NCBI GenBank assembly: GCA_001899635.1
Contig: MKVQ01000043.1
Coordinates: 617,962-681,961 of the forward strand
Source: Myxococcales bacterium 68-20
GTDB lineage: Bacteria; Myxococcota_A; Polyangia; Polyangiales; Polyangiaceae
DNA: 64,000 nt
Direction of reading: 5' to 3'
Positions within the stretch are counted from its first letter, which is position 1; each line of letters opens with the position of its first letter. Both the position numbers and the translations under genes were made by a program. The notes beneath the pieces are model-generated. The model was not told where the DNA came from. It saw only the letters and a list, made by a program, of their open reading frames with translations, and searched no databases. Positions 14,978 to 61,876 of this stretch are shown here, piece after piece.

Positions 14978-14995
14978 GTCGAGAGGACGAGCCTG

Positions 14996-38213: not shown

Positions 38214-38419
38214 CAGCCTCCATCGACTTCCCCCCCGTCGCGCTCGCGGAGGTACGCAAGCGGCCAGTGGCCGTCGAGCGTGCGGAGGCTTTGCCGACAG
38301 TATCCGCCTCGAATCGCGCCGGGCCGTCGAGCGCGCTGGTCGCTTATTGAGAACGCTGCTACCTCGATCGTTCTCGGCTGGTGCAGCCATGGACTCGAAC
38401 TCGGACTCGGAGCTTGTTG

Positions 38420-41400
38420 ATGTCGGTTCGCTATCGCGGCGCACGCGGAATGGCCTCGGGGATCGTGATCGGGGCCTTCTTCTTCTCTTGCACCCCTAAT
38501 CGACCGACACCGGACGACAGCGCGCCCGAGACCAGCACGCAGAGCAGCGCGCTGCTGGCCGCGCCTGGCTGGTCCGGCACCGCCGCCATGAGCGCGGAGC
38601 GCGGGCAGCATGCGGCGGTCCTTCTCCCGACCGGCAAGCTCCTCGTCATCAATGGCGTCAACCGCATGGGCTTCGTCGCCGCGTCCGAGCTCTACGACCC
38701 CGACACAAACACGTGGACCGCTGCGGGCGCCCCCGGGATCCAGGGCAACGTCACGGTGGCCGTGCTGCTGCCGAGCGGCAACGTGCTCGCGCTGAGCGAC
38801 GGCTCGACGACGGGCGCGCTCTACGATCCGATCGCTGGATCCTGGACGCCCACGGGGGCGATGTCGGCGCCCCGCTCGCTCCCGACGCTCACTGTCTTGA
38901 ACAACGGAAAGGTGCTCGTCGCGGGCGGGTCGAACCTCGCGTCGGCCGAGCTCTACGATCCCGAGACGAACACCTTCTCGCCGACGGGCTCCCTCTCCGT
39001 CGTTCGACGGGCGTTCTGCGCGACGCTCCTTCCAAGCGGACAGGTGCTCGCCGTGAGCGGATTCAACAGCACCGGAGAGGTCCCGAGCGCCGATCTCTAC
39101 AACCCGGCCACGGGGACGTGGAGCGCGGCTGCGCCGCCTCTCCACCCTCGGCACTACGCGACGAGCACGTTGCTGCCGAACGGGCGAGTCCTCGTCACCG
39201 GTGGGTTCGGAACGAGCGGCGTGCTCACGCAGTCCGAGCTCTACGACCCTGGAGCGAACACATGGACCGCGACCGGCAGCCTCGCGGCTCCGCGCAACGG
39301 ACACGCCGCGACCCTCCTCCCGAATGGAAAGCTCCTCGTCATCGGCGGTAGCGACGGCGCGCGGAACGCGCAGGCTCTCAGCGAGCTCTACGATCCGGCG
39401 ACCGGACAGTGGACCGGTGCAGGTTCGCTGGCCACCGCGCGTGAGAACGCGACGGCGACGTTGCTTCCGTCCGGCAAAGTACTGCTTGCCGGCGGGTTCA
39501 CCCTCAACCCAAGCGTCACCTTCTACGCGAGCACGGAGCTCTACGATCCCGGCGTGAACGCCTGGTCTGCGGCCGGCACGCCCGCGGGTCGGCTGGACTC
39601 CGTAGCCGCTCTCCTGCCCTCGGGCAAGGTGCTCGTCGCCGGCGGCCGGAACAGCGGCGGCAGCTCGGTCGCGTCGGCGGAGCTCTACGATCGAGGCGCA
39701 AACACGTGGTCTGCAGCGGCGGCTCTCGCGACGCCACGCGATCGTGCAACGGCGACGTTGCTCCCGAACGGCAAGGTGCTCGCGGCGGGCGGCGTGAACG
39801 GAGCGTCGGTGCTCACCGCGACCGAGCAGTACGATCCCGTCGCGAACGTTTGGAGCAACGTCGCTGCGATGACCGGCGCGCGGCACTCCCACACGACGAC
39901 GCTCCTCGCGGATGGGAAGGTCCTCGCCGTCGGCGGTCAGAACGACAGCACCGTCCTCGCGACCGCGGAGCTGTACGACCCGGGCGCCAACGCGTGGACG
40001 GCGGCAGGCTCGATCGCGTCAGCCCGTGCAGGCCATGCGGCCGTGCGACTGGCGAACGGCAAGGTCCTCGTCGCCGGTGGGCGGAACAGCGGCGGCACCG
40101 CGATCGATTCGGCCGGCATCCATGACCCGGCCACGAACACGTGGACGGCCGCGGCTCCGCTTGCGCAGGTACGTGACCGGCTCACGCTCACGCTGTTGCC
40201 TTCGGGCAAGGTGCTCGCGGCGGGCGGTGTCGCGGCCGGCGCCGCGCTCGCAAGCAGCGAGATCTACGACCCCGCGACGAACACGTGGACGGCCGGAGCC
40301 ACGCTCGCGCAAGCGCGGTACGGGCACACGGCGACGCTGATGCCGTCGGGGAAGGTGCTGCTAGCGGGAGGCCTGCGGGCGACGGCGACCTTCGCCGACG
40401 TGGCCGAGACCTACGATCCGACGAGCCGCGAGTTCACGAGCGTGAGCGCGCCGGGTGTTCGTGGCGGGGTCGTCGCCGCAGCGCTGCCTTCGGGCGAGGT
40501 GCTCGTCGCAGGCGGGACGAGCGCGCCCACCGCGCAGCTCTACGAGGACACGCGTGCGCTGGCCGCGTGGCGTCCCTCCGTCGCGGCGCCCAGCTCGCTC
40601 GTTCGCGGCTGTCCCGCTGTTCTCGAGGGCCAGGGCTTTCGGGGCATCTCCGGCGCGAGCAGCGGCAGCTACCTCGACTCGTCGACCAACTTCCCGTTCG
40701 TGCGGATGCGCGCAGCCGAAGGCGGACGGCTATGGACGCTTCCGGGGAGCTCGACGTCCGCGACGCGCGCGACGGTGACCGTCCCGGAAGACGTCCCGCC
40801 CGGAAGCTACGCCCTCTCGATCTTCGCCAACGCCATCTCCGGCGGTCGCATGGTGACGGTCGCGCCCAATTCGGCCCCCACGGCCCAAGCGATCGCCGCG
40901 ACGACGATGAACGACACGCCCGTCGTCATCACGATCACTGCAACCGATCCCGACGCCGGACAGGCATTGACGTATGCCGTCGTCACGCCGCCTCAGCATG
41001 GAACGCTGAGCGGCTCGCTTCCGTCCGTCACCTATACGCCGAACGCAGGCTACATCGGCTCGGACAGCTTCACCTATCAAGCGAGGGACTGCGGCCTCGA
41101 CAGCAACCTGGCGACCGTGAGCATCACGGTCCAGGATCGGCCGCCCGCGATTACATGCCCGGCCGACGTCGTCATCGAGGCCACGGACGCGAGCGGCGCG
41201 GTGGCCACCTGGCCTCCGGCAACGGCGACGGACACGGACGCACAGGCGCCGGAGATCACGTATTCGCCTCAGCTCGGGAGCAAGTTGCCGCTCGGAGCTA
41301 CGACCGTGACCGCCACCGCGCAAGACTCGGACGGTAACGATTCGTCATGCACGTTCCGGGTGACCGTGACGGACACGACTCCGCCGGTCATCACCTGCCC

Positions 41401-41743
41401 GGCCGACGTCGTCGTCGAAGCCACGAGGCCCGATGGGGCAGCAGCCAGCTGGCCACCGGCGACAGCTACCGACACGGCATCGACGCCCGAGATCACCTAC
41501 TCGCATCCGCTCGAAAGCACCTTCCCGCTCGGAAGCACGACGGTGACGGCCAAGGCCAAGGACCCCTCGGGGAACGAGGTCGCGTGCACCTTCGACGTGC
41601 TCGTCGAGGACACGGATGGCGGCTCTGGCGGCTGCGGCTGCCGCCAGAGCCCGAGCCGAGCCAACCTGTCACCGCTCGCACTCGTCATCGGTCTCGCTGC
41701 ATGGGTCGGGCGACGACGTTCGAGGGAACGTGCACTCGGCTGA
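38420..41743 (+). CDS. Kelch-repeat/HYR surface protein with MYXO-CTERM-like tail
   Basis: A 1107-residue exported protein from ATG 38420 (MSVRYRGARGMASGIVIG). A weak lipobox-like FFSC follows the signal peptide. About 14 kelch repeats of about 48 residues follow (ATLLPNGKVLVAGG ... SAELYDPxTNTWTAAG), enough for two propellers. Then comes a galactose-oxidase-type C-terminal beta domain (VPEDVPPGSYALSIFAN), a cadherin/Big-like module (TPVVITITATDPDAGQALTY ... TYTPNAGYIGSDSFTYQA), and two HYR modules (ITCPADVVIEATDASGA and ITCPADVVVEATRPDGA). The C-terminus is GGCGCRQ, a membrane helix and RRRSRERALG, as in MYXO-CTERM sorting signals. Likely a cell-surface adhesin or carbohydrate-binding protein. 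The catalytic residues of galactose oxidase are not evident. Confidence 0.88.
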   Translation: MSVRYRGARGMASGIVIGAFFFSCTPNRPTPDDSAPETSTQSSALLAAPGWSGTAAMSAERGQHAAVLLPTGKLLVINGVNRMGFVAASELYDPDTNTWTAAGAPGIQGNVTVAVLLPSGNVLALSDGSTTGALYDPIAGSWTPTGAMSAPRSLPTLTVLNNGKVLVAGGSNLASAELYDPETNTFSPTGSLSVVRRAFCATLLPSGQVLAVSGFNSTGEVPSADLYNPATGTWSAAAPPLHPRHYATSTLLPNGRVLVTGGFGTSGVLTQSELYDPGANTWTATGSLAAPRNGHAATLLPNGKLLVIGGSDGARNAQALSELYDPATGQWTGAGSLATARENATATLLPSGKVLLAGGFTLNPSVTFYASTELYDPGVNAWSAAGTPAGRLDSVAALLPSGKVLVAGGRNSGGSSVASAELYDRGANTWSAAAALATPRDRATATLLPNGKVLAAGGVNGASVLTATEQYDPVANVWSNVAAMTGARHSHTTTLLADGKVLAVGGQNDSTVLATAELYDPGANAWTAAGSIASARAGHAAVRLANGKVLVAGGRNSGGTAIDSAGIHDPATNTWTAAAPLAQVRDRLTLTLLPSGKVLAAGGVAAGAALASSEIYDPATNTWTAGATLAQARYGHTATLMPSGKVLLAGGLRATATFADVAETYDPTSREFTSVSAPGVRGGVVAAALPSGEVLVAGGTSAPTAQLYEDTRALAAWRPSVAAPSSLVRGCPAVLEGQGFRGISGASSGSYLDSSTNFPFVRMRAAEGGRLWTLPGSSTSATRATVTVPEDVPPGSYALSIFANAISGGRMVTVAPNSAPTAQAIAATTMNDTPVVITITATDPDAGQALTYAVVTPPQHGTLSGSLPSVTYTPNAGYIGSDSFTYQARDCGLDSNLATVSITVQDRPPAITCPADVVIEATDASGAVATWPPATATDTDAQAPEITYSPQLGSKLPLGATTVTATAQDSDGNDSSCTFRVTVTDTTPPVITCPADVVVEATRPDGAAASWPPATATDTASTPEITYSHPLESTFPLGSTTVTAKAKDPSGNEVACTFDVLVEDTDGGSGGCGCRQSPSRANLSPLALVIGLAAWVGRRRSRERALG

Positions 41744-44989: not shown

Positions 44990-46825
44990 TCAGTGCAGCT
45001 GCGCCGTAGCGGGATACACAATCTCTCTTCCCGCTCGCTTCGCCTCGATGAGATGTGCCGTGTTCACGAGCCCGATGTGCGAGAAGGCCTGGGGGAAGTT
45101 GCCTAGTTGCCGGTGGCGCTCCGGGTGGTACTCCTCCGCCAGCAGGCCCAGGTCGCTGGAGAGGGAGACGAGGCGCTCGAGGAGGGCCTCCGCTTCATCG
45201 AGGCGACCGACCATCGCGTAGTTGTCGGCAAGCCAGAAGCTGCAGATGAGGAATGTTGCTTCGTGTCCTGGCAGGCCGTCCACACCGGTTTCGCTCGAAT
45301 ATCGGAGAACGAGGCCGTCCCACGTGAGGCCCTTCTCGATCGCTGCCACGGTGGAGAGCATCCGGGGATCGTCGGCAGGCAAGAAGCCCATGTGCGGGAT
45401 CAAGAGAACGCTCGCGTCCAGGGCCTCCGAGCCGTACGACTGAGTGAACGCTCCGATGCGCTCGTTGTAGCCTCGCTGAAGCAGGTTGCTTCGGATCTGT
45501 TCGCGAAGGGCACGCCAGCGGGGGAGGCGTGTCTCCACTCGGTGGTGTCCTTGGACGCCGAACTCCTCGATCATGCGCACCGCCCGATCCACCGCCACCC
45601 AAGCCATCAGCTTCGAGTGAGTGAAATGGCGATGGCCCTCGCCGCGAACCTCCCAGATGCCCTCGTCCTTCCGTTGCCAGGCCTGTTCGACGAAGTCGAC
45701 GATCGCCAAGATCGGGCCCCAGGTGTCCGCTAGATCCGGCACACCGTAGACGTGTGCGTCGTACAGCGTGTTGAGCACCTCGCCGTAGACATCGAGCTGG
45801 AACTGGTCGTACGCGCCGTTGCCGATGCGCACGGGGCGTGAGTCCTCGTAGCCTGGAAGCCAGGGCAGCTCGATCTCCTCGAGGCGATGCTCGCCAGCAA
45901 CTCCATACATGATCTGCAGCTGGGCCGGTGCACCCGCGACCGCGCGCATCAACCAATCCCGCCACGCTGTTGCTTCGTCGATGTAGCCGCTGCGCATGAG
46001 CGCATCGAGCGTGAGCGTCGCGTCGCGTAGCCAGCAGTACCGATAATCCCAGTTTCGAACGCCGCCGAGCTCCTCGGGAAGCGAGGTCGTCGGGGCAGCG
46101 ACGATCCCGCCAGTTGGCTCGTACGTGAGCGCCTTCAGCGTGAGAAGCGAGCGGACGACGGCGTCACGAAAGCGGCCTTGGTAGGGGCAACGGGTCGCCC
46201 AGTTTTGCCAGTAGCGCTCGGTACGTTGAAGCTCCTTGCCTGCGTCGATGACGTCGTGGGAAGGGCGTTCGTGCGACGGGTAGAACGTGAGCGTGAATGG
46301 CAGGCGCTCACCTGCGCGGACGGTGAAGTTCGCCTCCAGTCGCGCAACGTCCCAGTCCGGCTCGATGGGGACAGGGCTGTTGAACAGGAGCGCGCTCGGT
46401 CCCGACGTCAACGTCGCGCGCATGCCGTCCACCTTGATCCACGGAATGTGGGCGCCGTACCCGAAGCGCGCCTTCAGATCGACGTGCATCGGGACCTCCC
46501 CCTCGATGCCCTCGACGATTCGGATGATGTCGTGCTCGGTCTCGCCCGGCGGCATGAAGTCGATGACACGCGCTCGGCCCTTGTCCGTCGTGATCTCGCT
46601 CTCGAGGATGAGTGTGTCCTGCCGGTAGTGACGCTCGATGCTACGTACCGGCGCGGCAGGTCGCATTGCCCAGTACCCGTTCTGATCGTTCCCAAGGAGC
46701 TTTGCGAAGCACGCATCCGCGTCGAAGCGCGGGAGACAGAGCCAGTCGATGGATCCGCCGAGCGAGATCAGAGCCACCGTGGTCGCGTCACCGATGAGCC
46801 CGTAGTCTTCGATGGGGGCAGGCAT
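44990..46825 (-). CDS. GH15 glycoside hydrolase (glucoamylase/trehalase type)
   Basis: A 611-residue enzyme of the bacterial/archaeal GH15 family, cytoplasmic (no signal peptide). Start at ATG 46825 (MPAPIEDYGLIGDATTVAL), the usual family N-terminus. The N-terminal beta domain (about 1-230) opens GGSIDWLCLPRFDADACFA. The (alpha/alpha)6 catalytic domain has NWDYRYCWLRDATLTLDALM, the general acid region DEGIWEVRGEGHRHFTHSK, and the base LLAEEYHPERHRQLGNFPQA. It would release glucose from alpha-glucans, oligosaccharides or trehalose. It is divergent from the sugar-oxidation operon at 46951, sharing the 125-bp intergenic space, so it may feed glucose to it. Glucoamylase versus trehalase cannot be told apart by eye. 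Confidence 0.9.
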   Translation of the reverse strand: MPAPIEDYGLIGDATTVALISLGGSIDWLCLPRFDADACFAKLLGNDQNGYWAMRPAAPVRSIERHYRQDTLILESEITTDKGRARVIDFMPPGETEHDIIRIVEGIEGEVPMHVDLKARFGYGAHIPWIKVDGMRATLTSGPSALLFNSPVPIEPDWDVARLEANFTVRAGERLPFTLTFYPSHERPSHDVIDAGKELQRTERYWQNWATRCPYQGRFRDAVVRSLLTLKALTYEPTGGIVAAPTTSLPEELGGVRNWDYRYCWLRDATLTLDALMRSGYIDEATAWRDWLMRAVAGAPAQLQIMYGVAGEHRLEEIELPWLPGYEDSRPVRIGNGAYDQFQLDVYGEVLNTLYDAHVYGVPDLADTWGPILAIVDFVEQAWQRKDEGIWEVRGEGHRHFTHSKLMAWVAVDRAVRMIEEFGVQGHHRVETRLPRWRALREQIRSNLLQRGYNERIGAFTQSYGSEALDASVLLIPHMGFLPADDPRMLSTVAAIEKGLTWDGLVLRYSSETGVDGLPGHEATFLICSFWLADNYAMVGRLDEAEALLERLVSLSSDLGLLAEEYHPERHRQLGNFPQAFSHIGLVNTAHLIEAKRAGREIVYPATAQLH

Positions 46826-46950
46826 GTTTGGATCATGGGGACGCACGCACGCCGCGCAATTAGCCAATGCGCGCTTCGCTCCTCAGCTCTAGGGCGGTCG
46901 ACGGCGGCATGCCGGATGCTTCCCCTAGAAGACCCCTACAGGAGGCGTCC
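46826..46950. promoter_or_regulatory. Divergent promoter region GH15 / sugar-oxidation operon
   Basis: 125 bp between two divergent starts. It holds the ribosome site GGAGG at about 46941-46945 for the dehydrogenase. An imperfect dyad with arms GCGCA (46854-46858) and TGCGC (46868-46872) flanks an AT-rich centre and is a candidate operator. No -35/-10 pair can be fixed with confidence. Confidence 0.4.
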
Positions 46951-48036
46951 ATGCGAGCGCTGGCGGTATTCCCAGACCGACGCGAGCTGCGAATGATCGA
47001 CGTCCCCGAGCCCGTGCGCCGGGGCGAGCGCGAGGTGACGGTACGAATCCGGGAAGTCGGCATTTGCGGCACGGATCGCGAAATCGGCGCGTTCCACTAC
47101 GGCGCACCGGCACCAGGAGCCGAACGGCTCGTGCTCGGCCACGAGGCACTCGGCGAGGTCATCGAGGTCGGTTCGAGCGTCAGCACCCTCGCCCCCGGCG
47201 ATCTGGTCGCGCTCACGGTGCGCCGGCCCTGCGACGCCGTCTCGTGCGTGGCCTGCCGAGCGGGTCGTCAGGACTTCTGCGTCTCCGGACGTTTCGTCGA
47301 ACGCGGGATCCACGGCGCCGACGGCTACCTGACCGAGCTCGTGGTGGAGGACGAGCGGTACCTCGTCAAAGTGCCCCATGGGCTCGCGGAGGTCGGCGTC
47401 CTGATCGAGCCGCTCACGATTGCCGCCAAGGCCGCGGTCGATCTCGACGCGATTCTGCGCCGCTATCCCTGGGAGCCGGTCGGCCTCCGGGCGCTCGTGC
47501 TCGGCGCGGGCCCCATCGGTCTGCTCGGTGCGATGATGCTCGTGGCGCGAAACGTCACGACGTTCGTCTACTCGCGCGAGGCCGCGGACAGCGATCGCGG
47601 TGAGCTCACCCGCTCGTTCGGGGCCGAGTATGTTTCTGCGGGCGACACGCCGTTGTCGGAGCTTCCGCCCCGCATCGGCAACGCGGACGTCGTGTTCGAG
47701 GCGGTCGGTGCGGCCAGAGTCGCATTCGGTGCACTTCCCGCGCTCGCGCCCAACGGCGTCTTCATCCTGAGCGGTGTCCCCGCGGCCGGCACGCCAATCG
47801 AAATCGACCTCGACGGCATCATGCGAGACATCGTGCTCAAGAACCAGGTGCTGTTCGGAACCGTGAACGCGTCCCGCGCTGCATTCGAAGCGTCGGTGCG
47901 TCAGCTCGAACAGTTCATGGGTCTGTTCCCGGACGCGCTCCGCAGCCTGATCACGCATCGCGCGACGCTCGAGGACGCACCCGAGCTCTTGCACCGTCCG
48001 GGCGGCATCAAGCAGGTCGTGTCGCTCGCCGCGTGA
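46951..48036 (+). CDS. Glucose/galactose 1-dehydrogenase-type zinc alcohol dehydrogenase
   Basis: A 361-residue medium-chain dehydrogenase of the glucose-1-dehydrogenase subfamily. GICGTDREI and LGHEALGEV supply the catalytic zinc ligands. The structural zinc cysteines are in RRPCDAVSCVACRAGRQDFC, and the typical VERGIHGADGY segment follows. The nucleotide-binding motif is ALVLGAGPIGLLGAM. It oxidises an aldose to the aldonolactone with NAD(P)+ in the cytoplasm, step 1 of the non- or semi-phosphorylative Entner-Doudoroff route. Start at ATG 46951 with GGAGG six bases upstream. First gene of an operon running to 53467 or 54534. Exact sugar (glucose, galactose or a pentose) is not readable. Confidence 0.88.
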   Translation: MRALAVFPDRRELRMIDVPEPVRRGEREVTVRIREVGICGTDREIGAFHYGAPAPGAERLVLGHEALGEVIEVGSSVSTLAPGDLVALTVRRPCDAVSCVACRAGRQDFCVSGRFVERGIHGADGYLTELVVEDERYLVKVPHGLAEVGVLIEPLTIAAKAAVDLDAILRRYPWEPVGLRALVLGAGPIGLLGAMMLVARNVTTFVYSREAADSDRGELTRSFGAEYVSAGDTPLSELPPRIGNADVVFEAVGAARVAFGALPALAPNGVFILSGVPAAGTPIEIDLDGIMRDIVLKNQVLFGTVNASRAAFEASVRQLEQFMGLFPDALRSLITHRATLEDAPELLHRPGGIKQVVSLAA

Positions 48037-48151: not shown

Positions 48152-48865
48152 GTGCATCCCTTGGAATCGAACGAGTCGGACGAGTCGTGGATCGACGTGA
48201 CTGTGCCGATCCGGAACGGCATGCTCCACTGGCCAGGCAATCCTGAGATCGTCGTCACCCAAACGGAGCATCTCCGGCGTGGCGATGAGGCGACAGTTTC
48301 GTGTGTCTCGCTCGGGGTTCACACCGGAACGCACGTCGATGCTCCGGTACACTTCATCATCGACGGCGCGGGCGTCGACTCCATTCGCCTGGACCGTCTG
48401 ATCGGACCGGCCCGCGTTCTCGACCTGGGCGAAGTCGATCGTATCCGGCAGAGTGAGATCGAGGGGCGGGAGATCCGCGCGGGCGACCGAGTTCTCTTCA
48501 AGACCCGCAATTCTCGGTATTGGAACGAGAAGGATTTTCGCTCCGACTACACCTGTTTGGTGCCGGAGTCGGCACGTTGGCTCGCCGCGCAAGGCGTATT
48601 GACGGTCGGGATCGACTACCTGTCGATAGCGAGCATGGACTCCGGCCCCGAGACACACCGAGCTCTCCTCAGCGCCGGCGTCTGCATCATCGAGGGACTC
48701 GACCTGTCGGGGGTCGGCCCCGGTCTCTACGACCTCATCTGCTTGCCGCTGCGGCTCGAAGGACTCGACGGCGCTCCGGCGCGGGTCCTCCTTCGTAAGT
48801 CGCGGCTCGCAGACGAGCAAGGAACTCGGGGCTCGCGCCCCAATCCCCCGCAGAGGAGACTCTGA
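48152..48865 (+). CDS. Cyclase-family metal hydrolase, possible aldonolactonase
   Basis: A 237-residue protein of the cyclase/kynurenine-formamidase-like family. The defining metal motif HTGTHVDAPVHF is at about residues 56-67, with DVTVPIRNGMLHWPGNP near the N-terminus and VGIDYLSIASMDSGPETHRA in the C-terminal half. Family members hydrolyse amides or lactone-like bonds. It sits between the sugar dehydrogenase and the dehydratase. The pathway needs a lactonase at that point and no gluconolactonase (SMP-30 type) is present, so opening the aldonolactone is the likely job (inference). It overlaps the next gene by 1 nt (TGATG), with SD GAGGAGA inside its 3' end. Confidence 0.8.
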   Translation: MHPLESNESDESWIDVTVPIRNGMLHWPGNPEIVVTQTEHLRRGDEATVSCVSLGVHTGTHVDAPVHFIIDGAGVDSIRLDRLIGPARVLDLGEVDRIRQSEIEGREIRAGDRVLFKTRNSRYWNEKDFRSDYTCLVPESARWLAAQGVLTVGIDYLSIASMDSGPETHRALLSAGVCIIEGLDLSGVGPGLYDLICLPLRLEGLDGAPARVLLRKSRLADEQGTRGSRPNPPQRRL

Positions 48866-51777
48866 TGGCTTTCGACGCACGAAACCTCCGAAGTCAGAAG
48901 CTCCGGAACGTCAACTTCCAGGGTGATGCGCTCCGCATGGGGATGAACTGGACGGAGGAGGATCTCGGCAAGCCACAAGTCCTCGTCGACAGCGCGTACG
49001 GCATGGGCCACCCCGGAACGTTTCACTTCCGACCGCTCATCGAGGAGATCTCGAACGGCGTCTTCGAAGCGGGGGGCAAGCCGGGAGTCTTCAACGTGAG
49101 CGACATCTGCGACGGCGTCGCGCAGGCGACGAGCGGGATGAGCTACTCGCTCGTATCGCGTGACGTGATGGCGGCAATGGTGGAGATCCACGCGCTCGGG
49201 CACCCGCACGACGGGATCGTGCTCTTGTCGGGGAACGACAAATCGGTCCCCGCACACCTCATCGCGATCGCGCGCTGCAATCTCCCGGCGATCCATGTGC
49301 CCGGCGGCACGCAGCTCAACGCACCCGACTACTTCACCTCGAACAGGCTGTGGCCGCTGGGGATGCACGTCTCGCGAGGCGAGAAGACCCACGAGGAGCT
49401 CTTCGAACGACAGAAGAACGCGTGCCCTACCTGCGGCGCGTGTCAGTTCATGGGCTCGGCGTCGACGGGTCAGGTCCTCGCCGAAGCGCTCGGGCTGGCG
49501 CTGCCAGGCTCGGCGTTGATCCCGGCGCCGCTGACGATGCTCCTCAGGTACGCGCGCGCGGCAGGGAAGCAGATCCTGAAGCTCGTCGAAAAGGGCCTCC
49601 TCCCACGCAACATCCTCACTCGAGACGCGTTCGAGAATGCCGTCGTGGTCCACGCCGCGGTCGGCGGCTCGACGAACGCGCTCCTGCATCTGCCCGCCGT
49701 AGCGCGTGAGGTCGGGATCGACCTCAGCGTCGACGACTTCGATCGGATCCACCGGCGCGTGCCCGTCCTCGCGAACGTGAAGACCACTGGGAAGTATCCG
49801 GTCGAGTACTTCTATTACGCCGGCGGCGTTCCGAAGGTGATGCTCGAGCTCAAGGACCTGCTCCACCTCGACTGCATCACCGTGACCGGCAAGACGCTCG
49901 AAGAGAACCTCGACGAGATCGAGCACTCGACGTTCTTCGAAGAGCGCCTCGGTTACCTTCACAACTACCGCATACCCGCTACGGAGATCATCCGCCCGCG
50001 CACCGAGCCGTTCTGCGCCGAAGGCGGGCTCGCCATCCTGCGGGGCAACATCGCGCCGGAGGGAGCCATGATCAAATCGTTCACGATACCCGAGGACATG
50101 CACGTCCACGTAGGGCCGGCGCGCGTCTTCGACCGAGAGGCCGACTGCCTCGAAGCGTTGAAGCACCACACGATCGTGCCGGGCGACGTGATCGTGATCC
50201 GATACGAGGGCCCGCGCGCCAACGGGATGCCGGAGATGTACTTCGCCTCGGCCGTACTCGACGCCGATCCTGTGCTCGGCCAGACCACGGCGCTCGTCAC
50301 GGACGGCCGCTACTCGGGCGCGATGAAGGGACCGTGCATCGGTCACGTGTCGCCCGAGGCGGCCCTCGGAGGCCCGATCGCACTCGTGGAAGATCGCGAC
50401 CTCATCGAGCTCAACATCCCGGAGCGCAAGCTGGCGCTCGTCGGCCTTCACGGACGTCGGGCCACGGAGGCGGAGATCGCGCAGGCGCTGGCGGACCGGC
50501 GTGCGCGCTTCAGCCCTCCACCTCCGCGTCACAGCGATGGCATCCTGGCGCTCTACGCGCGTGTCGCGAGCACGGCCTCGTCGGGTGCGTCGCTGACGCC
50601 CTCGGCGGCCGAGGGCGAGAAGCCTGCAGAGCCCCCGCGTGTTTCGCCCGAGCGCGAGCCCGCAGCTCCAAGCCCCGCGGCTCCTGCAACGGCGTCCGAG
50701 TTGGCGCAGACTCCATTCGAGGGGGAGGAGTCGGCGGCGGTAGCGGACCCGACGCCGCCGGAGGTCCTGCGCGAGGGGCACATCAAGGTGGTCGTCCTCG
50801 ACTACGACTTCGGTGACGTCGACATCGAGCGATCGATCATCGAAGGCGCCGGATTCGAGCTCGCTCTAGCCCAGTGCAAGAGCGAGGAAGAGGTCATCGC
50901 GGCTGCGCATGATGCGTACGGAGTCCTCTGTCAGTACGCCCCCGTGGGCGCACACGCGATCGACTCGTTCGAGCACTGCCGTGTGATCGCTCGGTACGGG
51001 ACGGGCGTCGATATCGTCGACGTCGACACCGCGACCAAACATGGGATTCAGGTCACGAACGCCCCCAACGACTGGTGCTCCGACGAGGTCGCCGATCACG
51101 CCGTGACCCTGTGGCTCACGGCAGCACGCAAGATCGTGAAGTACGACGCGGCGACGCGACGTGGTGAGTGGCATTGGCAGACCGGCAGGCCGATCAAGCG
51201 GCTCCGTGGAAGTGTCTTCGGGCTGCTCTCCTTCGGGGCGATCGCGCGCACGATCGCCGAACGAGCACGGGCCTTCGGGGTCGAGCTCTGGGCACACGAC
51301 CCGTTCGTCGACGCCGAGGAAATGCGGGCGCTCGGTGTGCGGCCGGTCTCGTTCGTCGAGCTGGTGGAGGGCTCGGACTATCTCGTGATCCAGTCTCCGC
51401 TGACCGACGAGACGCGCGGGCTCTTCGACGAGGACGTGCTTCGTCGGATGAAGCGAAGCGCCATCCTCGTCAATACCGCGCGTGGGCCGATCGTCAGCGA
51501 TCGCGCGCTCTACCGCGCCCTCACGGAGGGCTGGATCGCCGGAGCGGCGCTGGACGACCTCGAAGAGGAGCCCGCAAAGCATCGCGATTGGCGGCCGGAG
51601 AACCCGCTCCTTCGGCTCGACAACGTCATCGTGACGCCGCACGCAGCGTATTACTCCGAAGAGTCGCTCCGCATGGTCCGCACGATCGCGGCGAACGAGG
51701 TCGTGCGCGTGCTGACGGGTCAACGCCCACGCTCCCCCGTGAACGTCGTCGAAGAAGCGGAGAGGAACAGCGCATGA
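48865..51777 (+). CDS. Fusion: IlvD/Edd dehydratase + CtBP-like D-2-hydroxyacid dehydrogenase
   Basis: A 970-residue two-enzyme fusion. Residues about 1-565 are an IlvD/Edd sugar-acid dehydratase: SDICDGVAQATSGMSYSL, ACPTCGACQFMGSASTGQVL, NAVVVHAAVGGSTNALLHLP and ALVTDGRYSGAMKGPCIGHV. It resembles the YjhG/YagF (xylonate) branch. The usual CDK motif, whose Cys helps hold the Fe-S cluster, reads GNDKSVP. A Pro/Ala/Glu linker (about 565-632) joins a D-2-hydroxyacid dehydrogenase (about 635-965). That part has an altered Gly loop (FGLLSFGAIARTIA), Arg in NTARGPIV, Glu in LDDLEEEP and His in VTPHAAYYSEES, the last as in CtBP-like proteins. The first half should dehydrate aldonate to 2-keto-3-deoxyaldonate; the reductase substrate is unknown. 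The start follows SD GAGGAGA; the stop overlaps the aldolase gene. Confidence 0.88.
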   Translation: MAFDARNLRSQKLRNVNFQGDALRMGMNWTEEDLGKPQVLVDSAYGMGHPGTFHFRPLIEEISNGVFEAGGKPGVFNVSDICDGVAQATSGMSYSLVSRDVMAAMVEIHALGHPHDGIVLLSGNDKSVPAHLIAIARCNLPAIHVPGGTQLNAPDYFTSNRLWPLGMHVSRGEKTHEELFERQKNACPTCGACQFMGSASTGQVLAEALGLALPGSALIPAPLTMLLRYARAAGKQILKLVEKGLLPRNILTRDAFENAVVVHAAVGGSTNALLHLPAVAREVGIDLSVDDFDRIHRRVPVLANVKTTGKYPVEYFYYAGGVPKVMLELKDLLHLDCITVTGKTLEENLDEIEHSTFFEERLGYLHNYRIPATEIIRPRTEPFCAEGGLAILRGNIAPEGAMIKSFTIPEDMHVHVGPARVFDREADCLEALKHHTIVPGDVIVIRYEGPRANGMPEMYFASAVLDADPVLGQTTALVTDGRYSGAMKGPCIGHVSPEAALGGPIALVEDRDLIELNIPERKLALVGLHGRRATEAEIAQALADRRARFSPPPPRHSDGILALYARVASTASSGASLTPSAAEGEKPAEPPRVSPEREPAAPSPAAPATASELAQTPFEGEESAAVADPTPPEVLREGHIKVVVLDYDFGDVDIERSIIEGAGFELALAQCKSEEEVIAAAHDAYGVLCQYAPVGAHAIDSFEHCRVIARYGTGVDIVDVDTATKHGIQVTNAPNDWCSDEVADHAVTLWLTAARKIVKYDAATRRGEWHWQTGRPIKRLRGSVFGLLSFGAIARTIAERARAFGVELWAHDPFVDAEEMRALGVRPVSFVELVEGSDYLVIQSPLTDETRGLFDEDVLRRMKRSAILVNTARGPIVSDRALYRALTEGWIAGAALDDLEEEPAKHRDWRPENPLLRLDNVIVTPHAAYYSEESLRMVRTIAANEVVRVLTGQRPRSPVNVVEEAERNSA

Positions 51778-52436
51778 TCCCCCGCTCGCGGCTCGACTCG
51801 CTCCGAACGATCGAACGAGAGCGCGCGCTCGCCGTGGTTCGCCTCGAAGACGCGGCGCCGCTCCTGCCCGTCGTCGAGGCGCTGGCCGCCGGTGGCGTCC
51901 ATATCGTCGAGATCACCGTGACGATCCCGGGCGCTCTCGAGGCCATGGCACCGCTCGGTGCAAAGCTCGGTCCTCGGGTGTTGATCGGCGCGGGCAGCGT
52001 GCTCGACGCCGAGACGGCTCGACTCGCCATCCTTGCAGGCGCCCGATTCGTCGTCGGTCCGACGTTCCGGCCGGCCGTCGTCGAGCTCTGCCACCGCTAC
52101 GACGTCCTGGCCATCCCGGGTGCCTACACGCCGACGGAGATCCTGAGCGCATTGGAGGCCGGAGCCGATCTCGTCAAAGTGTTTCCCGCGGTCGCCCTCG
52201 GTCCCGCCTACGTGAGGAACGTGCTCGGGCCGCTGCCTCATCTCAGGCTGCTGCCAACGGGAGGAGTGACCACCGAGAACGCTGCGGAGTTCCTCGACGC
52301 CGGAGCCGTCGCGGTCGGGGTCGGCGGAGCCTTGCTCGACGGCGAGGCCTTGGCGCGAGGCGACTACCCGCGCGTCACGGAAGCGGCCCGTCGCCTGACG
52401 AGCGCCATCAGCGCGGCATGCGGGAGGTCCCGATGA
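51774..52436 (+). CDS. eda: KDPG aldolase (2-keto-3-deoxy-6-phosphogluconate aldolase)
   Basis: A 220-residue class I aldolase. Start at the ATG that overlaps the previous stop (ATGA); the frame upstream is only a shadow. The general acid/base Glu is in GGVHIVEITVTIPGA, AGSVLDAETARLAILAGA and FVVGPTFRP follow, and the Schiff-base Lys is in ADLVKVFPAVALGPAYV; RLLPTGGVTTENAAEFLDAG is the phosphate-binding loop. It splits KDPG to pyruvate and glyceraldehyde-3-phosphate in the cytoplasm. Next to a KDG kinase, this indicates that phosphorylation happens before cleavage, the semi-phosphorylative Entner-Doudoroff scheme. Also possible: 2-keto-3-deoxy-6-phosphogalactonate aldolase activity. Confidence 0.9.
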   Translation: MIPRSRLDSLRTIERERALAVVRLEDAAPLLPVVEALAAGGVHIVEITVTIPGALEAMAPLGAKLGPRVLIGAGSVLDAETARLAILAGARFVVGPTFRPAVVELCHRYDVLAIPGAYTPTEILSALEAGADLVKVFPAVALGPAYVRNVLGPLPHLRLLPTGGVTTENAAEFLDAGAVAVGVGGALLDGEALARGDYPRVTEAARRLTSAISAACGRSR

Positions 52437-53467
52437 CGCGCCCGAAGACGGTCACCTTCGGAGAGGTCGTTCTCCGTCTCACCCCGCCCGGATACGAGCG
52501 GTTCATGCAATCCCCGACGCTGAATGCGCACTTCGGCGGCGCGGAAGCGAACGTGGCCGTGAGCCTGGCCCATTTCGGACTGAACAGCCACTTCGTCAGC
52601 CGTGTGCCTCGGAATCCCATCGGCGATGCAGCGTTGCGGGCGTTGCGGGCAGAGGGCGTCGACGTCCGATCCGTCCAGCGCGGCGGCGAGCGTCTGGGCA
52701 TCTACTTCACCGAAACGGGGGCGAGCCAGCGTCCATCGCTCGTCGTGTACGATCGCGCGCATTCGGGATTCAGCGAGCTCGAGCCGGAGCGCATTCCTTG
52801 GTCCGACGTCCTCCGCGGCGCCCGCTGGTTTCATACGACGGGGATCGTCCCGGCTCTCGGAAAGGGCGTGGCCGAGTGCACGAGGGAAGCGCTCGTAGCC
52901 GCGCGCGCGACTGGAGCCAGGGTGAGCTTCGACGTCAACTATCGACGCAAGCTGTGGTCCGAAGGCGAAGCACGACGGGTCCTCCGACCGCTCCTCGAAC
53001 ACGTTCACCTCTTGATCGCGAACGAGGCGCACCTGACGGACCTGCTCGGCGCCGCCCCCGCAACTGCCGAAGAGACGACGACGCAAGGTCGGCTGGAGAC
53101 TCTGCGCATGGCCGCGGAGCGCGTTGCTTCCGAGCACGGCATCGAACAAGTGGCGATCACGCTGCGCGAGAGCCGGACGGCGAACACGAACGCATGGAGC
53201 GCCCTTCTCTACGACAGCGCGAGCAAGACACTTTATCGAGGCCCCCGGCACGTCGTCCATCTCGTCGAACGGATCGGTGGAGGGGACGCGTTTGCGGCAG
53301 GCCTCATCTTCGGCCTGCTCGACGGAAGGTCGCCCGAAGCCGCGCTGCATTTCGCGATCGCCGCAGGTGCGCTCAAGCTGACCGTCGTCGGGGACTTCAA
53401 CCGCGTCTCCGTCGAAGAGGTAGAACGCCTCGTCTCGGGCGACGAGGGAAGTCGGATGCTTCGGTGA
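52433..53467 (+). CDS. kdgK: 2-keto-3-deoxygluconate (KDG) kinase, PfkB family
   Basis: A 344-residue sugar kinase. ATG 52433 overlaps the aldolase stop (ATGA) and is preceded by SD GGGAGGT; the longer frame from 52418 would place the SD inside the gene. PfkB signs: TFGEVVLRLTPPGYERF and FGGAEANVAVSLAHFGLNS at the N-terminus, VSFDVNYRRKLWS in the middle, and the catalytic/ATP loop RIGGGDAFAAGLIFGLL. The N-terminal signature fits KDG kinases. It phosphorylates 2-keto-3-deoxygluconate (or -galactonate) for the neighbouring aldolase. Last clearly coupled gene; the aldo/keto reductase follows after 38 bp. Confidence 0.88.
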   Translation: MTRPKTVTFGEVVLRLTPPGYERFMQSPTLNAHFGGAEANVAVSLAHFGLNSHFVSRVPRNPIGDAALRALRAEGVDVRSVQRGGERLGIYFTETGASQRPSLVVYDRAHSGFSELEPERIPWSDVLRGARWFHTTGIVPALGKGVAECTREALVAARATGARVSFDVNYRRKLWSEGEARRVLRPLLEHVHLLIANEAHLTDLLGAAPATAEETTTQGRLETLRMAAERVASEHGIEQVAITLRESRTANTNAWSALLYDSASKTLYRGPRHVVHLVERIGGGDAFAAGLIFGLLDGRSPEAALHFAIAAGALKLTVVGDFNRVSVEEVERLVSGDEGSRMLR

Positions 53468-53505: not shown

Positions 53506-54534
53506 ATGGTCATGGAGACGACGAAGATTCCGGATATTCCGATTCCAGCCAGCCGGGTCGGTCTCGGGACCTGGGCCATCGGCGGATTTCAATGGGGCGG
53601 CGCCGACGACGACGAATCCGTCCGAACGATCCATGCTGCGCTCGACCTCGGCATCAACCTCATCGACACCGCGCCAGCGTACGGCTTCGGGCACTCCGAA
53701 GAGGTCATCGGACGTGCCATCGCCGAGCGAGGCCAGCGCGATCGCGTGATCATCGCCACCAAGGGCGGCCTCGAGCGCCGCGGTGACGCCTTGTTCAGGA
53801 ACGGGACGCGAAGGCAGATCTTCGAAGAAGTCGAGCTATCGCTTGCCCGCCTTCGCACCGATTACATCGATCTCTATCAGGTCCACTGGCCGGACCCGCA
53901 GACGCCCTACGAGGAGACCGCGGAGGCGCTTCGTGACCTCAAGCGCGAGGGCAAGATCCGCGCGGTCGGCGTCTCGAACTATTCGATCGAGGCGATGGAA
54001 CGCTTCCGCCGCGTCACGCCGATTGCGTCGGCACAGCCACCGTTCAATCTGTTCGAGCGAGAGGCGGAGGTGGACATCATCCCGTGGTGCCGTGCGCACG
54101 GCGTGGCCACCCTGACCTACGGCGCGCTCTGCCGCGGGCTCTTGAGCGGCGCCATCAATAAGGAGACCCAGTTCTCCGGAGACGACCTGAGGAAGGTCGA
54201 TCCGAAGTTCTTGCCGCCTCGATTCGAGCAGTACCTGAAGGCCGTCGAGCTCCTCGAGCGGTATGCGCGTGAGCGATACCAGACCGGAGTCCTCGCGCTG
54301 GCGGTGCGCTGGGTGCTCGATACGCCCGGCGTATCCGTCGCGCTCTGGGGCACGCGGCACCCGGGCGAGCTCGCCCCCCTGGAGGAGGTGATGCGCTTCC
54401 GACTCGACGACGAGGCACGCGCCTACGTCGAGGCCGTCGTGGCCGAAACCGTCCACGATCCCGTCGGTCCCGAGTTCATGGCTCCGCCGGAGCGTCCAGC
54501 CGAAGCGGCTCCGCACATGGGCGCGCCACTCTGA
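53506..54534 (+). CDS. Aldo/keto reductase
   Basis: A 342-residue NAD(P)H-dependent reductase of the AKR superfamily ((beta/alpha)8 barrel). The catalytic tetrad is complete: Asp and Tyr in LIDTAPAYGFGHSEE, Lys in IIATKGGLERRG, His in LYQVHWPDPQTPYEE. ALAVRWVLDTPGVSVALWG binds the cofactor. A good ribosome site (GAGAGGAGG) precedes ATG 53506. Placed after the KDG kinase and very likely in the same transcript, it may reduce a sugar aldehyde or act reversibly on an aldose, as in some pentose/deoxysugar pathways. Substrate is inferred from context only. Confidence 0.88.
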   Translation: MVMETTKIPDIPIPASRVGLGTWAIGGFQWGGADDDESVRTIHAALDLGINLIDTAPAYGFGHSEEVIGRAIAERGQRDRVIIATKGGLERRGDALFRNGTRRQIFEEVELSLARLRTDYIDLYQVHWPDPQTPYEETAEALRDLKREGKIRAVGVSNYSIEAMERFRRVTPIASAQPPFNLFEREAEVDIIPWCRAHGVATLTYGALCRGLLSGAINKETQFSGDDLRKVDPKFLPPRFEQYLKAVELLERYARERYQTGVLALAVRWVLDTPGVSVALWGTRHPGELAPLEEVMRFRLDDEARAYVEAVVAETVHDPVGPEFMAPPERPAEAAPHMGAPL

Positions 54535-56867: not shown

Positions 56868-57455
56868 TCAGATCGCACGGACTTCACCCAGGGCCTCCAT
56901 CACCTCCTGCCAGTCGATCGCGTTGGCTGCAGAGCCCGGCTCTTGCCCCCACGACCGCGCCAGCTCCTGCAACGCAGCGGCGCGCGTGGCATGCGCAGCG
57001 GTCGTCACGTGGATGGCTTGGCCGGCGGCATCGGTCGTGCTCGCCTCCATTCGCCAGCTCTCTTCCGCGCCGTCGAGCGGGAATACGCGAATGGCAAGGG
57101 TCATCCCTCCACGACCGAGCTCGTAGGTCATGTTCTGGCGCTCGCGGAACTGCGAGGTGATTTGTACGCTCCGTCGGGCTTGTTTCGTACGCGGCCCGGA
57201 TTGGTCGCGGTCCGCTCCTGCTTCGGTCACGCGAAGCGCGCGATGCTCGAACATGGCGCCGTCGAGGCGATCGATCGCGACGCGAGCGTCTTCGCCGCTT
57301 GCCATCGTGACGAACGCATAGCCGCGTGAACGTCCGCTCGAGCGGTCGATCGCCATGTGCACGTCCGCGACGGCACCGTGCTGCGCGAAGCGTCTCCGCA
57401 ATGCGTCAGCGCTGACGTCCTCAGCAAGATTTCCAACGTAAAGTCTCGGGGCCAT
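56868..57455 (-). CDS. RRM-type RNA-binding protein
   Basis: A 195-residue protein. Residues 1-80 are an RNA recognition motif with RNP2 (RLYVGNLAEDV) and RNP1 (SRGYAFVTMASG), as in bacterial glycine-rich-like RNA-binding proteins. A basic linker (GPRTKQARR) follows. The C-terminal part (about 105-190) is a second small domain of unknown type (TYELGRGGMTLAIRVFPLDG ... WRMEASTTDAAG ... AAALQELARSWG). Bacterial RRM proteins are usually one RRM with a short tail, so this added domain is notable. Probably binds single-stranded RNA in the cytoplasm. The start fits the family (MAPRLYVGNL). Confidence 0.88.
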   Translation of the reverse strand: MAPRLYVGNLAEDVSADALRRRFAQHGAVADVHMAIDRSSGRSRGYAFVTMASGEDARVAIDRLDGAMFEHRALRVTEAGADRDQSGPRTKQARRSVQITSQFRERQNMTYELGRGGMTLAIRVFPLDGAEESWRMEASTTDAAGQAIHVTTAAHATRAAALQELARSWGQEPGSAANAIDWQEVMEALGEVRAI

Positions 57456-60097: not shown

Positions 60098-61876
60098 CTA
60101 CTGCACGGACACGAGCGGCGTCGTGACGAGCTTCCGTTGCGCCATCCCACCGGGATAGGCGTAGCTGGCATACTTGTCCCAACCCCAAAGCGTCGCGGTG
60201 AACGGGCCTGTGCTCCGCATGCGCTGTAGGCCGTTCTGACAGACCTTGTCGCCGAAACGGTCGCCGGCGCCATGGCCTCGCGCCAGGTCGACGCGCATGA
60301 ATTCGTAGTCGCCCCGGGTGCCGATCGGCTTCCAGCCAGTCAGGTCACCCGCGCATTCGAGCCAGACGTCCTCGAAGTTGGCTCCCCGCGCCTTCGCCGC
60401 CTTCGCACGCACGACGACGAGCGACGTCTCCGCATACGTCGGATCCGCGTAGAAGCTGTACGAGCTCAGGTACTGCCCCGCCGGAACGACGTTGACGAAC
60501 TCAGGATCGCCGTAGCCTCCGACGTCCTGGCCGTTGGCCATATAGGCAGCAAGATAGATCGCATGCTCCGCGTCCTGGGTGCGAACGACGAATGCATCCC
60601 CCACCCCCGAGGTGAACGTCACGGCCTGACGGGCGGACATCGCGATGGGGGCGCCGGGAGGCGGCGCGGGATCATAGTCGAGGACGGTGCCGTCTCTCGC
60701 GGCGACGATCCGGTAGTACATGGTCTCGTGCTCATTGCCGACGCGCGGCCGGTAGCCGACGCCGACGTACTCGTGGCCCCACTGCTCGAACGGCGGGAGC
60801 TGCTGATTCGCGACTTCACAAGCCGCCTTCGAGGACGGCACCATCATGCATGAATGCCCGCCGAAGACCGTCGTCGGCTTGTTGGATACGACGACGCTGC
60901 CGGTCAGCTCCCGCGACTGAACGAGCTGGAGGAATTCGCCCTTGTCGAGGTGGTACGTGGTCGGGACTCGCGCCGCGGTGCCCTTCACGGCAAGTCCTCC
61001 CTGGACGTCTTCGGTCGGGTCGAGCGTCACCTCCGTGCCGTCTTCGCTGGCGACAATCTGAGCCGACGGAACGCCGGTCGTTGCCGACTCCCACGCGTTG
61101 ACGATCACGTGCTCCTTCCCCCAAGTCGCGGGCGGAAAGAGGAGCGTCGCGGAGGGCACGTAGCTCGCTGCCCCGCCCCACGGGTACATCGTGACCACGC
61201 TCGCCGGCACGTTCGCCTTCAGATGGAAGGACGCGTCGAAACGCGTGCCGGTGGCAAAGTCGGCGACCAGCGCGGGAACGACGCCCACGGGGCAAGGTTG
61301 GTACTTGTGGTCGAACCAGGTGGTCGCCAGAGCTACCTCCCCCGTCTGATCGGCAACGAATAGGATCGCGCTCTCTCCCGCGGGGACGGGGCCCTCGAGG
61401 GGTAAGAGCGACGCGTCCCCCGGATTCGTCCTGAAGAGGGCCTTCGACAGATCGAGCACCTTGCCTTCGCGCTCGAGCGAGAGCTCGAGCGGCTGCATCG
61501 AAGTGTTGACGACAAATGCCGCGAAACACGATTGCGGTGCTCGGGGGTCATTCGGGATAGCCGGCAGTTGGAAATAGAACTCGCAGCCGTTCGAGCTTCG
61601 GTCCGCAGCTGCAGCCGCGCATGGCTCCTGGCAACGCGCAGCGCCGCAGGCGAGCTCCGGTGGACACGTCTCGACCACCTCGTCCGTGCAGGTATCGACG
61701 ATCGAACGGCCGTCGACCGAGCATTGAAATCCGCATACGGCCGCCTCCGTCGAGGCGTCGATCTGAAAGACCTCCTCCCGCTGCGTGAACGAGGTCCGGT
61801 CGTCCCCGCAGGCGCCGGCGGCGCCGAGCACGAGGACGACGACGCAACCAGCGCGAAGCACGTGAGCCCACCTCAT
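60098..61876 (-). CDS. Cassette C: IgGFc-binding-domain lipoprotein
   Basis: A 592-residue lipoprotein starting at ATG 61876, which overlaps the RCC1 stop (ATGA). Signal peptide ends LGAAGAC; then the Cys head (CGFQCSVDGRSIVDTC ... ACGAARCQEPCAAAAADR) and the IgGFc-binding-type domain (YPWGGAASYVPSATLLFPPA, ASEDGTEVTLDP, NKPTTVFGGHSC, GYGDPEFVNVVPAGQYLSSY, KYASYAYPGGMA). Very close to the cassette B copy (36444), more distant from A (14996). It is the last gene of cassette C and is convergent with the collagen-like gene. Predicted surface lipoprotein; ligand unknown. Confidence 0.87.
   Translation of the reverse strand: MRWAHVLRAGCVVVLVLGAAGACGDDRTSFTQREEVFQIDASTEAAVCGFQCSVDGRSIVDTCTDEVVETCPPELACGAARCQEPCAAAAADRSSNGCEFYFQLPAIPNDPRAPQSCFAAFVVNTSMQPLELSLEREGKVLDLSKALFRTNPGDASLLPLEGPVPAGESAILFVADQTGEVALATTWFDHKYQPCPVGVVPALVADFATGTRFDASFHLKANVPASVVTMYPWGGAASYVPSATLLFPPATWGKEHVIVNAWESATTGVPSAQIVASEDGTEVTLDPTEDVQGGLAVKGTAARVPTTYHLDKGEFLQLVQSRELTGSVVVSNKPTTVFGGHSCMMVPSSKAACEVANQQLPPFEQWGHEYVGVGYRPRVGNEHETMYYRIVAARDGTVLDYDPAPPPGAPIAMSARQAVTFTSGVGDAFVVRTQDAEHAIYLAAYMANGQDVGGYGDPEFVNVVPAGQYLSSYSFYADPTYAETSLVVVRAKAAKARGANFEDVWLECAGDLTGWKPIGTRGDYEFMRVDLARGHGAGDRFGDKVCQNGLQRMRSTGPFTATLWGWDKYASYAYPGGMAQRKLVTTPLVSVQ

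Follow-up and report, generated by a model that had tools for sequence, protein, structure and literature searches.

In the IlvD/Edd family of dehydratases, the Cys of the Cys-Asp-Lys (CDK) motif is held to be fully conserved and the first [2Fe–2S] cysteine to be conserved in one subfamily only, and in 6-phosphogluconate dehydratase the Cys of a Cys-Asp-Gly (CDG) motif may substitute for that first cysteine, as stated in a 2018 paper on the structure of D-xylonate dehydratase (PMC5770437). The motifs GCDKTT and GHC(M/N)T together with a C-terminal His mark the class of PuDHT, an enzyme most active on D-gluconate, and this sugar-acid class accepts (2R,3S) acids only; PuDHT became inactive when its C-terminus was extended by one residue, and its terminal His sits in the active site (Melse et al. 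2022; PMC9314677, sections cited here). We analysed a stretch of 64,000 nt from Myxococcales bacterium 68-20 (contig MKVQ01000043.1, positions 617,962 to 681,961; "the window", to which all coordinates refer), in which one open reading frame (ORF) at 48865–51777 on the + strand joins an IlvD/Edd-type dehydratase to a CtBP-like D-2-hydroxyacid dehydrogenase. The fusion is real and rare; elsewhere its two enzymes are neighbours. It lies in an Entner-Doudoroff-type operon and is a variant of known families. Its most interesting feature, overlooked by the original prediction made from this DNA, is an Asn in place of the CDK cysteine.

Results

The fused gene

The ORF encodes 970 aa and runs from an ATG to a TGA with 0 internal stops in a reading-frame check. 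Preceded by the ribosome-binding site AGAGGAGA, its ATG shares 1 nt with the stop codon (TGA) of the upstream cyclase gene; its own TGA in turn overlaps the ATG of the KDPG (2-keto-3-deoxy-6-phosphogluconate) aldolase gene (ATGA, 51774–51777). Pfam finds both domains of the IlvD/Edd family, ILVD_EDD_N at residues 36–348 (5.1e-106) and ILV_EDD_C at 374–575 (1.9e-56), and then 2-Hacid_dh_C at 748–928 (3.5e-51) and 2-Hacid_dh at 658–960 (7e-22). AlphaFold2, run on an alignment of 47 sequences, gave two well-predicted domains with a mean pLDDT (predicted local distance difference test) of 86.9. In a fold search residues 2–578 resembled M. tuberculosis IlvD (6ovt, Z 48.5 over 545 residues), and residues 635–968 resembled McyI (Z 36.0) and CtBP2 (Z 35.3). 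The protein is accordingly divided into a dehydratase domain (residues 1–579; 48865–50601), a Pro/Ala/Glu-rich disordered linker (residues 580–633, pLDDT below 50; 50602–50763) and a dehydrogenase domain (residues 636–965; 50770–51759), all on the + strand. The original prediction of one 970-residue frame with such a linker is borne out by the single ORF with its clear ribosome-binding site, by both sets of domains and by a linker without a stop codon.

Since the same frame and both domains recur in two other genomes at 81–83% identity with linkers of other lengths, a chance origin of the frame is excluded, and a sequencing artefact or frameshift is ruled out as well. The antisense ORF at 48727–50781 is taken for a high-GC shadow frame.

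Within codons 571–670 two alternative start codons occur, TTG 613 and GTG 642. No Shine-Dalgarno-like stretch was seen in the 20 nt upstream of TTG 613. GTG 642 (50788–50790, + strand), where the dehydrogenase domain begins, has GAGGGG 9 nt upstream, so the linker cannot be called free of good restart sites. In the two other complete fusions, at loci L009 and L013, this position is likewise occupied by a GTG, behind CGGAG and AGAGGGGAG, and the linker of each also has one ATG. Judged from these signals, a free dehydrogenase could possibly be made from GTG 642 alongside the fusion; against this, GTG is also expected as a Val codon at this G+C content. A stop or restart in the linker had been named as something that would refute the original prediction: the stop is absent, and the restart is no more than possible.

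Cysteine pattern of the dehydratase

Cluster sites were compared in an alignment of 70 rows that includes E. coli IlvD, Edd and YagF. Matches shorter than 380 residues (both L051 pieces, L052 and the first L071 piece) are not part of it; locus L001, a copy of the window, is left out of the counts below, and L001 and L071 are left out of the dehydratase tree. As aligned on the + strand, HPGTF (residues 49–53; 49009–49023) places Gly51 at the position of the first [2Fe–2S] cysteine of the PCN type. Cys82 (49108–49110) belongs to a CDG motif as in Edd and YagF and is a candidate cluster ligand. In GNDKS (residues 123–127; 49231–49245) Asn124 stands for the Cys of CDK, and Asp125 and Lys126, Mg ligands in relatives, are kept. 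CPTCGAC (49423–49443) provides Cys187, Cys190 and Cys193, the last two being candidate ligands. TDGRYSGAM (50299–50325) retains the catalytic Ser484 and has Met487 in place of the usual Ser/Thr. The first PROSITE motif, which according to PMC5770437 contains Cys-Asp-Lys, is therefore not found, since the window has GNDK; in the second, TDGRxSG(A/G)-(S/T), the T-D, R and S are kept and the last position is Met.

Asn124 is present in 39 rows after removal of one duplicate, and Cys82, Cys187, Cys190 and Cys193 are present in 39 of 39. These rows were chosen by Asn124; that they form one clade rests on the separate tree, in which they make up exactly one branch (100/100). This GNDK clade was found in Chloroflexota, Actinomycetota, Myxococcota, Acidobacteriota and Thermomicrobiota. 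Asp83, Asp125, Lys126 and Ser484, corresponding to the Mg ligands (among them a carbamylated Lys) and the catalytic Ser of the family, are conserved, and position 487 is Met in 28 and Ala in 10 of the 38 rows that have it. Chloroflexota include members of the clade without a dehydrogenase match in the fetched stretch; near seven of these dehydratases (L018, L019, L021–L023, L025 and L039) lies a gene of a short-chain dehydrogenase/reductase cluster.

Thirteen relatives, 11 of them Bacillota, have Cys82, Cys124, Cys190 and Cys193 together, and from their sequences it looks as if one of four possible cluster ligands became dispensable. All 39 GNDK rows have Cys138 (in the stretch 49267–49281, + strand), which is missing from 13 of 13 four-cysteine relatives. 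In the alignment E. coli IlvD has CDK, CPTC and GSC, and E. coli Edd has CDG, CDK and GTC; the set Cys82, Cys190 and Cys193 is absent from all three E. coli references. These three residues are likely the ligands of an Fe–S cluster, and the GNDK clade contradicts full conservation of the CDK cysteine in the family. Model scores and residues rule out an ordinary Edd or IlvD.

Rarity and origin of the fusion

A scan of genome contigs with peptides of the fusion itself, hence a biased sample, returned 66 related loci, many of them cut by contig ends, so that all counts of neighbouring genes are lower bounds. Besides the window, three of the 66 carry the one-frame fusion, two in Polyangiaceae (L009, L013) and one in Kofleriaceae (L015), where the frame enters the dehydrogenase before the contig ends. 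In 27 of the 66, a dehydrogenase of the same subfamily is a separate gene adjoining the dehydratase (in L052 the dehydratase is partial); in L073 both are partial. The fusion occurs in 3 of 12 genomes of the genus, 2 of 41 of the family sample and 2 of 57 of the phylum sample, counts that overlap, since the frame lengths in genomes G001 and G002 equal those of L009 and L013 and these are probably the same genomes. Kinship with these loci suggests that the window, too, comes from Polyangiaceae. A widespread fusion, which would have spoken against the original prediction, is ruled out by the scan and the three samples. Likewise, our literature search found no characterised fusion of this type and no GNDK variant among open-licence PMC papers, a range that leaves absence unproven.

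The four fused rows group together as a single clade of the dehydratase tree (100/100); the position of this clade within the GNDK clade is not settled by the tree. On these alignments a single origin of the fusion, within Myxococcota, is most likely. Short tails between the end of the domain and the stop are found in acidobacterial and solirubrobacterial dehydratases (L031, L016, L020, L024), plausibly a halfway state toward fusion. A second, independent fusion seemed to be offered by a 1015-residue open frame assigned to both hits in G029, a genome of the window's family, and was rejected: a stop follows ...RHSH, and the dehydrogenase is a separate gene.

The dehydrogenase

Both Pfam domains of D-2-hydroxyacid dehydrogenases are present, together with conserved Arg873, Glu900 and His926, which we take to have the catalytic roles of their counterparts in CtBP and which the original prediction had rightly listed as kept. 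It had also noted an altered Gly-rich loop (GLLSFGAIA, residues 786–794; 51220–51246, + strand). The alteration is real, with SFGAIA instead of GxGxxG; it is a conserved trait of the subfamily, however, as the positions of the first and third Gly are Ser/Ala in 28 of 31 rows, Ala/Ala in 2 and Gly/Ala in 1. Decay of the loop due to fusion is thereby ruled out. Matches below 200 residues (L073 and the end of L015) are not in this alignment, and the tree omits L001 as well as additional, distant dehydrogenases from L028 and L061. In this tree the sister group of the fused proteins (99/99) is formed by the dehydrogenases of Streptomyces, Nonomuraea and Nocardia. The closest solved chains are archaeal phosphoglycerate dehydrogenase (PGDH), glyoxylate reductases and CtBP.

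Distant D-2-hydroxyacid dehydrogenases at L043 (7872–8963, 39% identical) and L074 (8795–9733, 32%) also adjoin a related dehydratase, and the association of the two enzymes may have arisen more than once.

Swap of the dehydratase partner

A dehydratase of the superfamily stands beside or is fused to the dehydrogenase in 29 of 29 dehydrogenase-bearing loci, a figure biased by the use of the fusion as query. In 12 of them, including Streptomyces, Nonomuraea and Nocardia, the partner belongs to the other, sugar-acid class: GCDKTT is found in 12 of 12 rows, GHCNT in 11 (GHCNV in L062) and a C-terminal RDSH in the four rows examined at that end. Since the partner class differs between loci, the dehydrogenase seems to follow the reaction and not one particular dehydratase. 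The fusion is seen for the GNDK class only, maybe because the end of these dehydratases is not the active-site His reported for the PuDHT class in the sections cited above.

In G029 glucose dehydrogenase, a sugar-acid-class dehydratase with the C-terminal His, the dehydrogenase (65% identical), the cyclase, an aldo/keto reductase and, further on, a glycoside hydrolase of family 15 (GH15) are separate genes. L107 has glucose dehydrogenase, a dehydratase of the sugar-acid class, dehydrogenase, cyclase, aldo/keto reductase and GH15 in an 18-kb stretch, within which there is no match to the window's kinase or aldolase; three distant relatives of the kinase lie elsewhere in that genome. Between the aldo/keto reductase and GH15 of L107, a 705-residue ORF (13344–15461) gave no Pfam match (E 1e-4) and may be a spurious frame.

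Operon and chromosomal neighbourhood

Pfam and family models give the operon, on the + strand, as a glucose-dehydrogenase-type medium-chain dehydrogenase/reductase (Glu_dehyd_C; 46867–48036), a cyclase-family hydrolase (PF04199; 48152–48865) that might be a lactonase, the fusion, a KDPG/KHG aldolase (51774–52436), a PfkB-family protein resembling 2-keto-3-deoxygluconate (KDG) kinase (52418–53467) and an aldo/keto reductase (53506–54534); the genes overlap around the fusion. A GH15 trehalase/glucoamylase-like hydrolase (44990–46867, – strand) is divergent from it. By family, the set of the semi-phosphorylative Entner-Doudoroff pathway is present (glucose dehydrogenase, aldonate dehydratase, KDG kinase and KDPG aldolase), and from these assignments we read the operon as one for catabolism by this route. 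L009 and L013, too, include the kinase and aldolase in their operons. The Edd model detects two IlvD/Edd proteins in the window's genome, the fusion and IlvD, which leaves the fusion as its only candidate sugar-acid dehydratase of the superfamily; no Edd scored over the cut-off in the four genomes searched with this model. At E 1e-20 the genome has a single KDG kinase.

Among the 29 dehydrogenase-bearing loci we counted GH15 in 20, glucose dehydrogenase in 7, a glucose-6-phosphate-dehydrogenase-like gene in 11, the cyclase in 3, KDG kinase in 6 and the aldolase in 6 by match to the window's protein or 5 by clustering. GH15 was present in 1 of the 37 loci without the dehydrogenase, namely L048, a contig of the metagenome-assembled genome whose contig L052 has the dehydrogenase. 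The 11 glucose-6-phosphate-dehydrogenase-like genes (6508–7977 in L042, and 10 others) are those of Actinomycetota, and free glucose may be their substrate; in Polyangia, Ktedonobacteria and Acidobacteriota, as in the actinobacterial L020, glucose dehydrogenase is found instead.

Plasmid relatives of the dehydrogenase

We examined 16 of 17 plasmid records; L085 and L095 carry no annotation in the stretch, which leaves 14 annotated stretches. The plasmid dehydrogenases are 41–55% identical, and a kinase-aldolase pair stands beside three of them. In Marinovum the dehydrogenase is annotated as lactate dehydrogenase (55% identity), beside genes annotated as 2-keto-3-deoxygalactonate (KDGal) kinase and KDPG aldolase; in Pantoea it is annotated as C-terminal binding protein (52%), beside KDGal kinase, 2-keto-3-deoxy-6-phosphogalactonate (KDPGal) aldolase and an enolase-superfamily protein; in Priestia a sugar kinase and a KDPG aldolase are adjacent. 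The Geobacillus plasmid has an enolase-superfamily protein and a gene annotated as glucose 1-dehydrogenase. Genes annotated as MR/MLE family (mandelate racemase/muconate lactonizing enzyme), DgoD or UxaA are found in 7 of the 14 stretches, and the stretches of Azospirillum, Bradyrhizobium, Haloarcula, Halocatena and Metabacillus have neither such an annotation nor the kinase-aldolase pair.

Directly after the CtBP-like dehydrogenase, an RraA-family gene occurs in three proteobacterial plasmids (L087, L088, L089); in Marinovum (L086) the gene at this place is annotated as demethylmenaquinone methyltransferase, a label often put on RraA-like proteins.

Other genes of the window

A protein with IgGFc-binding domain (35967–38213) lies beside a Kelch/HYR/Ig repeat protein (38381–41743), and a second one (60098–61960) beside an RCC1-repeat protein (61873–63342). 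A bacterial RRM (RNA recognition motif) protein is encoded at 56868–57455; its match covers residues 5–75 of 195, the remainder having no Pfam match (E 1e-4).

Discussion

The fusion, the identity of its domains, its operon, the conserved residues and the adjacency of both genes elsewhere are observed, and from them we infer substrates, reaction direction, cluster type and any channelling. We suggest, as a possibility somewhat short of an even chance, that an IlvD/Edd clade spread over five phyla holds its Fe–S cluster by Cys82, Cys190 and Cys193, with Asn124 facing the vacated site, that it acts on gluconate, and that in Polyangia it has become one polypeptide with a neighbouring 2-keto-acid reductase. 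For the fusion itself, our preferred though tentative reading, held with a little over one third of our belief, is a bifunctional catabolic enzyme composed of a gluconate dehydratase and a 2-ketoaldonate reductase. The N-terminal half would dehydrate an aldonate, most likely D-gluconate, to KDG, using Mg2+, the catalytic Ser and a cluster on Cys82, Cys190 and Cys193, with Asn124 at the former CDK position. The C-terminal half, presumably NAD(P)-linked, would act on a C6 2-ketoaldonate, for example 2-ketogluconate, and the (2R)-aldonate produced by this reduction would pass to the dehydratase, while the neighbouring kinase would phosphorylate KDG and the neighbouring aldolase cleave the product.

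A 2-ketoaldonate is favoured as substrate of the dehydrogenase because some relatives occur where a kinase and an aldolase already consume KDG-type acids. It is also favoured because D-2-hydroxyacid dehydrogenases yield the 2R configuration, which sugar-acid dehydratases need. Several observations weigh against this assignment. Only 6 of 29 loci have KDG kinase and aldolase close to the dehydrogenase, and the pair is absent from 11 of the 14 annotated plasmid stretches. Sequence comparison places the dehydrogenase nearer to PGDH, glyoxylate reductase and CtBP; more distant is the chain that carries the label 2-ketogluconate reductase and the PDB title glyoxylate/hydroxypyruvate reductase. A source of 2-ketogluconate is not evident, because no transporter family was matched by any of the 17 scanned ORFs of the window and a gluconate 2-dehydrogenase subunit (PF13618) gave no match in G000 and G002 and was barely over the cut-off in G001 and G029. 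Moreover, the glucose dehydrogenase of the operon would make gluconate without 2-ketogluconate.

The original prediction had correctly assigned the protein to sugar acids and had proposed the opposite order, with KDG channelled from dehydratase to dehydrogenase. Here KDG would be reduced to a 3-deoxyaldonate in a redox-neutral branch from glucose, the glucose dehydrogenase making the NAD(P)H that the dehydrogenase uses. This order is unlikely on our estimate, at about one chance in four. It would account for the recurring set of GH15, glucose or glucose-6-phosphate dehydrogenase (both GH15 and such a dehydrogenase in 15 of 29 loci), dehydratase and dehydrogenase, mostly without kinase or aldolase, of which L107 is an example with its 18-kb module and only distant kinase relatives elsewhere. 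However, the kinase and aldolase in the operons of the window, L009 and L013 would compete for KDG, as would those of the Pantoea and Marinovum clusters, and a pathway with a 3-deoxyaldonate as its end product is not known to us. The claim of channelling in that direction is thus not upheld; the reverse order fits about equally.

Somewhat more doubtful still, at about one chance in five, is that the dehydrogenase has as its substrate some other 2-keto or 2-hydroxy acid arising in the operon, for instance D-glycerate/hydroxypyruvate from a glucoside split by GH15, and that fusion only equalises the amounts of the two enzymes. GH15 does track the dehydrogenase (20 of 29 loci with it against 1 of 37 without, many contigs being cut), and glyoxylate/hydroxypyruvate reductases and PGDH are among the best solved matches; yet sugar-acid operons house some of the relatives for which no GH15 is listed in the neighbourhood, and throughout the biased sample of 29 the dehydrogenase is accompanied by a dehydratase of the superfamily. 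That one half is catalytically dead and serves as scaffold or sensor, be it the dehydratase without its CDK cysteine or the loop-altered dehydrogenase in a CtBP-like sensing of NAD(H), is improbable: Cys has become Asn at 124 throughout the 39-row clade, Ser/Thr is lost at 487 in the 38 rows having that position and the first and third Gly of the loop are replaced, but Asp83, Asp125, Lys126, Ser484 and the Arg/Glu/His of the dehydrogenase are conserved, Chloroflexota members of the clade exist with no dehydrogenase match in the fetched stretch, and the fusion is the genome's only candidate sugar-acid dehydratase of the superfamily.

The fusion, the adjacent pairs and the swap of partners tie a CtBP-like dehydrogenase subfamily to sugar-acid catabolism, so that its substrate becomes testable. 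The GNDK clade offers a naturally occurring variant on which the identity of the cluster-binding cysteines and the cluster type, [2Fe–2S] or [4Fe–4S], can be examined, a question that bears on the oxygen stability of dehydratases in cell-free gluconate conversion.

Comparison with known systems

Compared with IlvD (6ovt, Z 48.5; 6nte, Z 47.5), the dehydratase half shares the fold, the Asp/Lys Mg ligands, the catalytic Ser and the third cysteine; it differs in lacking the PCN and CDK cysteines and in having those of CDG and CPTC. A separate IlvD with PCN and CDK is encoded in the window's genome. With Edd and YagF/YjhG the fusion has the CDG cysteine in common, whereas the CDK cysteine is retained in E. 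coli Edd and YagF, and the 262 bits that the fusion scores with the 6-phosphogluconate dehydratase model TIGR01196 fall below the curated cut-off of 708. The sugar-acid dehydratases PuDHT, CcXylDHT and RlArDHT have the same proposed reaction, the same role in their operons and the same dehydrogenase partner; the marks of their class (SADHT, sugar-acid dehydratase), GCDKTT, GHC(M/N)T and the C-terminal active-site His as given in the cited sections, are lacking in the fusion.

The dehydrogenase half has the fold and the Arg/Glu/His of CtBP, archaeal PGDH (1wwk) and glyoxylate reductases, and it is set apart from them by the loop SFGAIA and by WCxxEVADHA and HAAYYSEE. Its plasmid counterparts in Pantoea and Marinovum are unfused; an enolase-superfamily protein is part of the Pantoea cluster and none is listed beside the Marinovum gene. 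The fusion of KHG/KDPG aldolase and sugar kinase (NF041633) likewise joins two enzymes of one pathway, though other enzymes than here: the window's kinase scores 454 bits to the kinase part of that model, and in the window kinase and aldolase are separate genes.

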